From Granulosicoccus sp. (GTDB lineage: Bacteria > Pseudomonadota > Gammaproteobacteria > Granulosicoccales > Granulosicoccaceae): a DNA stretch of 51,005 bases. A program made the position numbers and the translations under genes. The notes under the pieces are model-generated. The model was not told the origin of the DNA and searched no databases. It saw nothing but the letters and a program-made list of their open reading frames with translations. Positions 2,168 to 27,540 of this stretch are shown piece by piece (position 1 is the stretch's first letter; the number at the start of each line of letters is the position of its first letter). The DNA lies in NCBI GenBank assembly GCA_013002205.1, contig JABDKN010000128.1:66824-117828 (forward strand). The letters are read 5' to 3'.

Positions 2168-2173
2168 TATAAT
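2168..2173 (+). promoter_or_regulatory. Consensus -10 box TATAAT upstream of hinT
   Basis: A perfect TATAAT lies 106 bp before the hinT start codon. No good -35 hexamer is seen at 16-18 bp spacing, so the assignment rests on the -10 alone. Transcription from it would begin near 2180, inside the left arm of the palindromic element at 2177-2253, placing that hairpin at the 5' end of the hinT mRNA. Confidence 0.35.
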
Positions 2174-2176
2174 GCT

Positions 2177-2253
2177 TTAATCCGGACTATTCATGAAATC
2201 GCCAAATCCTTCCAGTGAACGGATTCGGCGATTTCATGAATAGTCCGGATTAA
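2177..2253 (-). repeat. Palindromic repeat element, short copy (77 bp)
   Basis: Arms 2177-2209 and 2221-2253 are inverted repeats of 33 bp with one mismatch, separated by an 11-nt loop. The core of each arm is CCGGACTATTCATGAAA. Read on the minus strand, this copy matches the 197-bp copy at 26800-26996, except that 121 bp between two GGAAGG repeats is missing and one T is present. The outer ends read TTAA on both sides. It encodes no protein and sits in the hinT leader. It could be a non-autonomous mobile element or a structured RNA element; the family is not one I can name. Confidence 0.85.
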
Positions 2254-2278: not shown

Positions 2279-2635
2279 ATGAATGAAGAAACTATTTTCA
2301 GCAAAATCATCCGCAAGGAGCTGCCTTCGGACATGCTCTATCAGGATGAGCTGGTCACCGCCTTTCGTGATATCAATCCGCAACGCGCAACGCACGTACT
2401 GATAGTGCCGAACCGCCACATACCGTCGGTGGACGACGTCTGCGACGAGGACGAAGCTGCCCTGGGCCGTATGTTCACGGTTGCCAGGCGGATAGCTCGC
2501 GACGAAAGCATCAACGAAACGGGATACCGCTTGATCGTCAACTGCGGTGAACATGGTCGTCAGGAGGTTCCACATATCCACATGCATCTGGTAGGTGGTG
2601 AGGATGTCGGTCCCATGCTCGCTCGCCGGGCCTGA
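2279..2635 (+). CDS. hinT: HIT-family nucleotide phosphoramidase (HinT-like)
   Basis: The 118-residue protein is a purine nucleoside phosphoramidase of the HIT superfamily, acting in the cytoplasm on AMP-lysine-like phosphoramidates. The defining histidine triad is HIHMHLV, with H99, H101 and H103; H101 is the expected nucleophile. Upstream motifs [18 protein letters not shown] and [12 protein letters not shown] are typical of the Hint branch. The length matches E. coli HinT (119 residues). The ATG at 2279 is followed at once by the conserved opening, and the ribosome binding site is weak (CGAGAA). The palindromic repeat ends 25 bp upstream. The next gene downstream is an unrelated lipoprotein with a 290-bp gap. 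Confidence 0.95.
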
Positions 2636-25549: not shown

Positions 25550-26803
25550 ATGAAGCTGCAGTCGCGCGATATCTGCGATGCCGATCCCACAGCGCTGACG
25601 ATTGGTCAGGCGCTGGAACGCATCAAGAGCACTCTGCCACGCGTCAGGGATTCCGAAACCATAGGCTGTGATGAAGCGCTGGGCCGAATTTCTTCCTGCG
25701 AAGTGTATTCATCCATGTCCGTTCCCTCTTTCAGAGCCTCAGCCATGGATGGTTATGCTGTGCGTGTGGCAGACTGCGATGGTTCACTGAAGGTCGCAGG
25801 CAAATCGATGGCCGGTCACCCCGGCATAGACAGACTCGAGAAGCGGACCTGCCAGCGAATCATGACCGGTGCACGAGTGCCGGATGATGCAGATGCAGTC
25901 ATACAACAGGAGAACGTGGAGCCTGGCGAAGACAGCATAACGGTACGAGTACGACCGGTAGTTGGACTGAATATACGTGAACCCGGTTCCGATAGCCGTG
26001 ACGGTGCATTGCTGATTGGTTTTGGTTGCCGCCTGGGCCCGGCCGAGTTGGCACTGCTGGCAGCTCACGGCATCGATCGAGTCAGCGTCTATCGAAGGCT
26101 GACCATTGCCGTTTTTTCAACCGGCGATGAACTCAGAAACGCAGGGTCCCGACTAGAAACAGGGCAGATCTACGATGCCAACCGCCCATTGTTGCAAGCC
26201 ATTCTCGACAACAATGCAATTTCAATGATCGATCTGGGTATCAGCAAGGATTCCACTATCGAGTTGCGGAAACGACTGGATGCCGCACACGACGCGGACA
26301 TGATCATCTCCAGCGGTGGGGTATCTGTCGGCGATGCCGATCACGTACGTCAGGTCCTGGAACGCATCGGAAAAGTCAGTGTGTGGAAAATAGCTGTTAA
26401 ACCGGGGCGTCCCCTTACCTTCGGCCTCAGTCATTCCCGCCAGGCCTACTTTGGATTGCCAGGCAATCCTGTCTCTGCAGCCATAACCTCCTTGTTTTTC
26501 GTCAAACCAGCGATTCGTTACATGCTGGGGTCTGACTCACCGCTTTTTCCGCCACTGCAGGTCCGTCTCGTGGATACACTGAACAAGCATCCCGGTCGCA
26601 TTGAATACCAGCGAGCCATACTGCAATGTAACCAGGATGCACAGTGGCAGGTATCTACCACGGGACTCCAGGATTCGCATGTGCTGACCTCACTTCACCG
26701 CGCCAATTGCCTGATAGAACTGGATACGAATTCAACAGGGGCGAATCCGGGAGATATTGTGCGTGTGTACCCCTTCACCCATTTTTCGGACCCGCTTATC
26801 TAG
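25550..26803 (+). CDS. Second MoeA-type molybdopterin molybdenumtransferase
   Basis: This 417-residue protein is a full-length MoeA paralogue. It has VPSFRASAMDGYAVRV, MTGARVPDDADAVIQ, LTIAVFSTGDELR, IISSGGVSVGDADHV and AYFGLPGNPVSAA, so the molybdopterin and molybdate sites appear intact. It differs widely from the copy at 7620-8915, so it is not a recent duplication. Paralogous MoeA proteins may serve different metals or dinucleotide forms, which is inference. The ATG at 25550 has AAAGGA five bases upstream. That site lies in the few bases separating it from xerD, so its promoter must lie within xerD coding sequence. The stop codon TAG at 26801-26803 is part of the first four bases (CTAG) of a palindromic repeat. 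Confidence 0.93.
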   Translation: MKLQSRDICDADPTALTIGQALERIKSTLPRVRDSETIGCDEALGRISSCEVYSSMSVPSFRASAMDGYAVRVADCDGSLKVAGKSMAGHPGIDRLEKRTCQRIMTGARVPDDADAVIQQENVEPGEDSITVRVRPVVGLNIREPGSDSRDGALLIGFGCRLGPAELALLAAHGIDRVSVYRRLTIAVFSTGDELRNAGSRLETGQIYDANRPLLQAILDNNAISMIDLGISKDSTIELRKRLDAAHDADMIISSGGVSVGDADHVRQVLERIGKVSVWKIAVKPGRPLTFGLSHSRQAYFGLPGNPVSAAITSLFFVKPAIRYMLGSDSPLFPPLQVRLVDTLNKHPGRIEYQRAILQCNQDAQWQVSTTGLQDSHVLTSLHRANCLIELDTNSTGANPGDIVRVYPFTHFSDPLI

Positions 26804-26996
26804 CCCGGACTATTCATGAAACGCCGAATCCGTTCACTGGAAGGCCAGCCCCGCAGACCCATTGTTCGTAGTGGATTTCGTGAAGGAGCCGAACGCGGCC
26901 CGGCGAGATACAGGCTGTATCTCCGACTGAACGAAATTCGCTACGGACGAAGGGGATGCGGAAGGATTTGGTGATTTCATGAATAGTCCGGGCTAG
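26800..26996 (+). repeat. Palindromic repeat element, long copy (197 bp)
   Basis: Both ends read CTAG followed by CCCGGACTATTCATGAAA in inverted orientation. A second inverted pair lies inside, 26867-26881 with 26931-26945 (13 of 15, both mismatches G.U in plus-strand RNA). Near the centre there is a perfect hairpin, GAGATACAG at 26905-26913 with CTGTATCTC at 26915-26923. The whole element can therefore fold into one long arm. The interior 26845-26965 is absent from the short copy at 2177-2253. It begins at the moeA2 stop codon and ends 148 bp before the convergent lysine-rich gene. No transposase is encoded. Non-autonomous mobile element or structured RNA are both possible. Confidence 0.88.
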
Positions 26997-27144
26997 AGTC
27001 TGCGCAAATCGATCAAAGCGGCTTGTGTATGTCACCGAGCCGGGTACGGCAGCTGCGGAGTCTGCATTCCCGATATCGATCAATCGGCCCAACAGCATTA
27101 CAGGAACTGCCCGCAACACTGCTGGACCAGTTACAGCGAACTGA

Positions 27145-27540
27145 CTACATCGCCCTGCTACGGGCTTTTTTCTTGCTAGCTCGCTTTTTGCCTGTTGCCT
27201 TCTTCTTGCCAGCGGCCTTCTTCTTGCCGGTTGCCTTCTTCTTGCCAGCGGCCTTCTTCTTGCCGCGAGCCTTCTTCTTGCCGGCAGCCTTTTTCTTGCC
27301 GCGAGCCTTTTTCTTGCCCGCGGCCTTCTTCTTGCCACGAGCCTTCTTCTTGCTGGCCGCCTTTTTCTTGCCGCGAGCCTTTTTCTTGCTGGCTGCCTTT
27401 TTCTTGCTGGCAGCCTTTTTCTTTCTGGCTGCCTTTTTCTTGCTGGCCGCCTTTTTCTTGCTGGCTGCCTTTTTCTTCGTAGCGCGCTTCTTAGCGGCTT
27501 TTGCTGGCTTGGCTGCAGCCGGTTTACTGATTCGAGCCAT
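27145..27540 (-). CDS. Lysine-rich histone H1-like DNA-binding protein
   Basis: The 131-residue protein is almost entirely lysine and alanine, with no acidic residues. After a 21-residue leader (MARISKPAAAKPAKAAKK and three more) come 16 hexapeptides of the form KKKAxx, then KKRAS and a short basic tail. In the second half the units alternate AAG with ARG or ATG, so a 12-residue higher-order repeat exists. Such proteins resemble eukaryotic H1 C-terminal tails, AlgP of Pseudomonas and other bacterial histone-like proteins, and probably bind DNA non-specifically. The ATG at 27540 has AGGAG seven bases upstream. The gene is convergent with moeA2. Repeat number is likely variable between strains. 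Function beyond DNA binding is not shown. Confidence 0.88.
   Translation of the reverse strand: MARISKPAAAKPAKAAKKRATKKKAASKKKAASKKKAARKKKAASKKKAASKKKARGKKKAASKKKARGKKKAAGKKKARGKKKAAGKKKARGKKKAAGKKKATGKKKAAGKKKATGKKRASKKKARSRAM

Follow-up and report, generated by a model that had tools for sequence, protein, structure and literature searches.

Among insertion sequences of the IS1380 family, ISPa33 has 16-bp repeats and a 4-bp duplication (PMC4133298). Miniature elements have been tied to other transposase families, with MITEPye1 assigned to IS1182 (PMC11578231) and the TIMEs to Tn3 (PMC4133298). The named IS1380 element ISAcr4 ends in CCGGAATTATGCATGAA / CCGGGATTATTCACGAG with a 4-bp CTAT duplication, and these ends are related to those of two small palindromic elements that we analysed in a Granulosicoccus genome. 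Both lie in one 51,005-bp stretch of DNA, here called the window, of a 4.46-Mb draft assembly in 316 contigs. The initial annotation of the window described them as one palindrome in two sizes and did not recognise the family, which can be named as a palindromic MITE with IS1380-type ends, YTAR-CCCGGAYTATTCATGAA.

Two copies and their relatives in the host genome

Direct reading of the sequence agrees with the annotated positions of the two copies, 26800-26996 (197 bp) for the long one and 2177-2253 on the minus strand (77 bp) for the short one. The outer 4 bp differ between the copies because they are target-site duplications, CTAG around the long copy (26800..26803 and 26993..26996) and TTAA around the short one (2177..2180 and 2250..2253). 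Excluding these, the mobile parts are 189 bp (26804-26992, plus strand) and 69 bp (2181-2249, minus strand). The long copy has no gene and is predicted to fold into a single branched hairpin; a 174-aa frame at 26814-27338 overlaps it, extends into the flank and is purely mechanical. The terminal inverted repeat CCCGGACTATTCATGAA occupies 26804..26820 on the plus strand and 26976..26992 on the minus strand. Further in, alignment and predicted fold place one side hairpin, CTGG-AAGG-CCAG, at 26837..26848 and a second at 26885..26901, and the fold places an apical hairpin, GAGATACAGGCTGTATCTC, at 26905..26923, all on the plus strand. The stem of the short copy has 29 consecutive pairs without bulge or mismatch. 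Folded as DNA and compared with shuffled sequences, the two copies have z-scores of -11.4 and -12.7, and nothing in the window reached the gathering score of an Rfam covariance model.

With up to three mismatches, the 15-bp end occurs six times in the window against 0.93 expected (0/100 shuffles). A second hairpin, CTGGCGCGGACCATTCATGGAACGC...ATTGGTCTGCGCCAGGC, adjoins the short copy at 2081-2150 and contains a diverged copy of the family end, CGGACCATTCATGGA, at 2120-2134 on the minus strand; it is perhaps an old element of the same MITE family.

Removing 26845-26965 from the long copy leaves 76 bp that align with the 77-bp copy read on the minus strand from 2253 to 2177, as the initial annotation had proposed. 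Besides the outer 4 bp, the two differ by one inserted T in the short copy, which changes AAACGCC to AAATCGCC, and by three substitutions, which from long to short are C>T at the first base of the element, G>A at its last base and one T>C (GGTG > GGCG).

A family of long and deleted copies had been predicted from this pair, and the host genome holds one. Sequence searches of the draft found 27 matching stretches, and the end 15-mer with one mismatch occurred 20 times, whereas its reversed control did not occur at all. At C73:165-359 lies a second long copy, 95% identical and with a TTAA duplication, and a second short copy on contig C142 has the same GGAAGG junction, CACTGGAAGGATTTGG. Elsewhere there are a 47-bp form flanked by TTAA / TTGA (C209), a 56-bp form (C90) and many single-ended fragments. 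Like the short copy of the window, the one on C142 has the GGCG variant, but it is without the extra T, which suggests that one deletion was spread by transposition, with the T inserted later. One end of the C142 copy is degraded and its duplication is imperfect (TTAA / TAAA), so the two short copies may also have arisen by separate deletions at these repeats. Under a single deletion, the reading we prefer, the deleted form apparently spread after it arose, which the initial annotation did not foresee. Nor did it foresee the perfect palindrome produced by the single T or the reach of the family across many phyla.

A search for PF13701 in 274 genomes of the class led to a 1,680-bp IS1380 element in another gammaproteobacterium (L199). 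It encodes a 457-aa transposase (NF033539, E=1.2e-108), has the termini CCCGGATTATTCATGAA and CCCGGACTATTCATGAA and is flanked by CTAG on both sides. A transposase 82% identical and interrupted by stops lies in a genome that also carries the miniature end (L154/L236). The left repeat of the long copy is identical to one end of L199, and its right repeat is identified by end-motif matches and the same comparison; only the end repeats match between the window elements and L199, not the interior. IS1380 copies in the window’s own genus have CTAG CCTGAATATTTCA, and related ends also occur in Nitrospiraceae IS1380 relatives. The ends and duplications of L199, ISAcr4 and the same-genus copies identify the window ends as IS1380 ends. 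A transposase with matching ends, which the initial annotation had suggested looking for, is thus found with identical 17-bp ends in another gammaproteobacterium but not in the host, where the 316-contig draft gave no IS1380 transposase above the cut-off. Repeated insertion sequences are often missing from draft assemblies.

The window elements are short (189 and 69 bp) and without a transposase gene, have 17-bp terminal inverted repeats and CTAG or TTAA duplications, belong to a set of copies at separate loci of the host genome, and share their ends with an autonomous element, L199, in another genome of the class. As neither contains an IS1380 transposase gene, they are not autonomous IS1380 members; the window element is derived from, or parasitic on, the IS1380 family and is not an insertion sequence itself. 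We consider it very likely that both copies are MITEs moved in trans by an IS1380-family transposase, and that the short copy came from the long one by a 121-bp deletion between GGAAGG repeats. The transposase would bind the terminal repeats and excise or copy the element, which would insert at YTAR with a 4-bp duplication.

Insertion sites and neighbouring genes

The long copy appears to have landed on the stop codon of a moeA-like gene (25550..26803, plus strand). The TAG of its left CTAG is the moeA stop codon, and the target duplication would have preserved the stop. The long copy is at this site in none of eight relatives, one of which has TTAG as its unoccupied stop. A lysine-rich repeat protein (KKKA-type, histone-H1-like, with no Pfam match) adjoins the long copy at 27145-27540, and a similar reading frame follows moeA in relatives.

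The short copy lies upstream of a hinT-like gene with a HIT domain (2279..2635, plus strand). A TATAAT at 2168..2173 on the plus strand stands 3 bp before the insertion, and among 25 element-free relatives 18 have the same motif conserved 33-56 bp before the hinT-like gene. The short copy probably landed just past this hinT -10 element. Since the insertion follows the conserved TATAAT by 3 bp, the hinT transcript is expected to have this hairpin at its 5' end, as its leader. Both moeA and hinT are marked as sites where insertion of a hairpin may have altered transcript ends.

That one copy occupies a stop codon and the other a 5' leader would also suit domesticated RNA hairpins, such as terminators or mRNA stabilisers, that are kept for a host function and were mobile only formerly. 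Among elements with target duplications, and with genes assigned simply as the longest ORFs, 19 of 26 non-coding insertions across phyla (L061-L178) fell exactly on stop codons, compared with 25 of 135 control YTAR sites (p=1e-7), and four paired positions covary in a Nitrospira group. However, a second, mostly lower-GC sample had no stop-codon excess (2 of 9 non-coding sites, p=1.0), and avoidance of coding sequence combined with the scarcity of YTAR in GC-rich DNA may explain the excess in the first. Neither window site is occupied in relatives. We therefore think domestication unlikely, and as the second sample did not reproduce the first, the stop-codon preference is kept only as a lead.

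Origin and polarity of the 121-bp difference

The segment missing from the short copy (26845..26965, plus strand) is bounded, as annotated, by GGAAGG at 26839..26844, within the first side hairpin, and at 26960..26965, both on the plus strand. The long copy contains seven direct repeats of 6 bp or more, GGAAGG among them, where about three are expected after shuffling, so the weight rests on the deletion end points matching a repeat and not on the presence of a repeat. The initial annotation had invoked slippage or recombination between the 6-bp repeats; the end points fit, but sequence alone cannot separate the two. In the predicted fold the two GGAAGG sit atop the outer stem and flank the inner hairpin, a geometry expected to favour slippage across a hairpin. 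The 121 bp were most likely lost by replication slippage as folding of the central hairpin placed the repeats side by side. Transposition of the shortened form would have followed, because the same junction is found at two loci.

The stem of a straight deletion product would include a bulge and a G-T pair, neither of which is present in the short copy of the window. The terminal C/G pair is replaced by T/A in both of its arms, and the inserted T and the T>C change make it a perfect palindrome. It seems probable that the single T and the T>C change, seen in this one copy, reflect quasi-palindrome correction by template switching, which would have added the T and so completed the palindrome.

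The proposal that the long form is ancestral fits well with related elements, found in the same genus and in a Rhodothermales MAG, that carry the central region. This region aligns with the centres of 158-, 189- and 215-bp elements of other genomes. The 158-bp element of the Rhodothermales MAG (L065) aligns as the window long form minus blocks of 16 and 15 nt, each of which is, or overlaps, a small side hairpin in the predicted fold; the 15-nt block is overlapped by the second side hairpin of the window copy. The first GGAAGG sits in the 16-nt block and is absent from the 158-bp form. Three more genomes of the genus (G007, G019, G026; L050, L052, L055) have elements with the 16-nt block, which therefore predates the deletion. 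The short copy retains the TGG of the side hairpin and the T preceding the first GGAAGG, a base that occurs only in forms with that hairpin. Since the central region is shared by all long relatives and the first GGAAGG occurs in relatives, the order would run from long to short. Deletion from a 189-bp type to 69 bp is the supported and better polarity, and as the 158-bp form is without the first GGAAGG, it is only this step that is polarised.

It is very improbable that the short form is the older and that 121 bp, for example another hairpin element, were inserted to give the long form. Gain or loss of side hairpins in blocks is evident from the 16 and 15 nt that separate the 158- and 189-bp forms. 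However, the central region aligns with elements of other genomes and pairs with itself across the junction, which argues that it was built together with the arms. Moreover, the short form keeps the TGG, and a short form with the same arms was not seen elsewhere among the relatives found. Deletion from the long form thus remains our reading.

Spread of the ends and comparison with described elements

Scanning genome contigs with the pattern YTARCCCGGAYTATTCATGAA gave at least 118 stretches. The matches listed come from MAGs labelled Nitrospira, Planctomycetota, Acidobacteria, Myxococcota, Zetaproteobacteria and Sedimenticola, and also Granulosicoccus, Krumholzibacteriia, Eisenbacteria, Armatimonadota and others, and for about half of them an inverted end lies some 70-290 bp away. 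Identical outer 4-mers, all YTAR, flank 38 of the 60 pairs fetched among the matches listed (CTAG 27, TTAA 7, TTAG 2, CTAA 2), counts that are biased on one side because the scan required YTAR there. Flanks that differ, for example a left TTAG with a right CTAA or CTAG, occur in L115, L103, L166 and L173 and may reflect either mutation or a target heteroduplex. The distribution within the phylum is very patchy, with the exact end and YTAR in only 13 of 398 genomes, twelve of them in one family (f198; G533, G420 and others). Plasmid and phage records contained no copy of the long element, and one viral contig carries one end.

In a Nitrospira MAG (L173:834-2180), an IS110-type transposase gene lies within a family palindrome, as if the centre were the target, and IS1111 inserts likewise in a Coxiella MITE (PMC10969869). 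We rejected L173 as an autonomous element, its IS110-type gene being inserted in a palindrome, and also L127 and L063, whose end pairings are unrelated. An all-against-all comparison of the ORFs adjoining ends revealed no recurring transposase. The IS5 group, too, is described as targeting YTAR. Although IS5 and IS110/IS1111 also use YTAR or palindromic targets, and the L173 gene stands between two half-palindromes, mobilisation by these families is hardly credible: there are IS1380 elements that have the same duplications and whose ends are identical or closely similar, no IS5 element with these ends was seen in searches not aimed at that family, and the best reading of L173 is an older palindrome whose centre received an IS110 element.

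The ends attributed here to IS1380 enclose interiors that share no sequence between groups, yet are mostly self-complementary, and the Nitrospira subfamily has paired changes at four stem positions. The smallest members are 26-bp solo palindromes, CCCGGATTATTCATGAATAATCCGGG, with identical YTAR 4-mers on both sides (L092, L332, L338, L339, L340). Each consists of two ends overlapping on TTCATGAA. As this sequence is itself palindromic, both ends carry it as an 8-bp direct repeat; the same logic of deletion between repeats would explain them. Tentatively, a single end conserved across many phyla may organise hairpin mini-transposons in which the hairpin, not the sequence, is kept, and deletions between repeats that the hairpin brings close yield discrete size classes down to 26 bp. 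Either selection during transposition or template switching that corrects the arms might maintain the hairpin. What stands out most in the family is that one end sequence is so widespread around interiors that are unrelated yet form hairpins, and the family's natural size series (158/189/215, 69, 47 and 26 bp) lets hairpin-guided deletion and arm correction be followed.

Neither these elements nor any IS1380 MITE is described in the literature searched, and a search of it for the exact end sequence gave no match. The elements appear to be a new, undescribed family of IS1380-mobilised palindromic MITEs, otherwise of an ordinary kind, with mechanisms that we infer from sequence. With IS1380 insertion sequences (NF033539, PF13701; ISAcr4) they share the terminal repeat, identical in L199 and similar in ISAcr4, and the 4-bp target duplication, mostly YTAR, but they are without a transposase, about ten times shorter, and have nothing in common with them beyond the ends. 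Like Correia elements (CREE), QMITE, Chunjie and MITEPye1, they are small and gene-less, with terminal inverted repeats, a target duplication, a hairpin, and full and truncated sizes; those elements belong with other transposase families, a distinction drawn from their descriptions and not from comparison of end sequences. The 26-bp solo palindromes of the family resemble REPs, and one family palindrome has been hit by an IS110-type element. In contrast to REP-like palindromes, however, the window family has YTAR target duplications and derives from IS1380-type ends.
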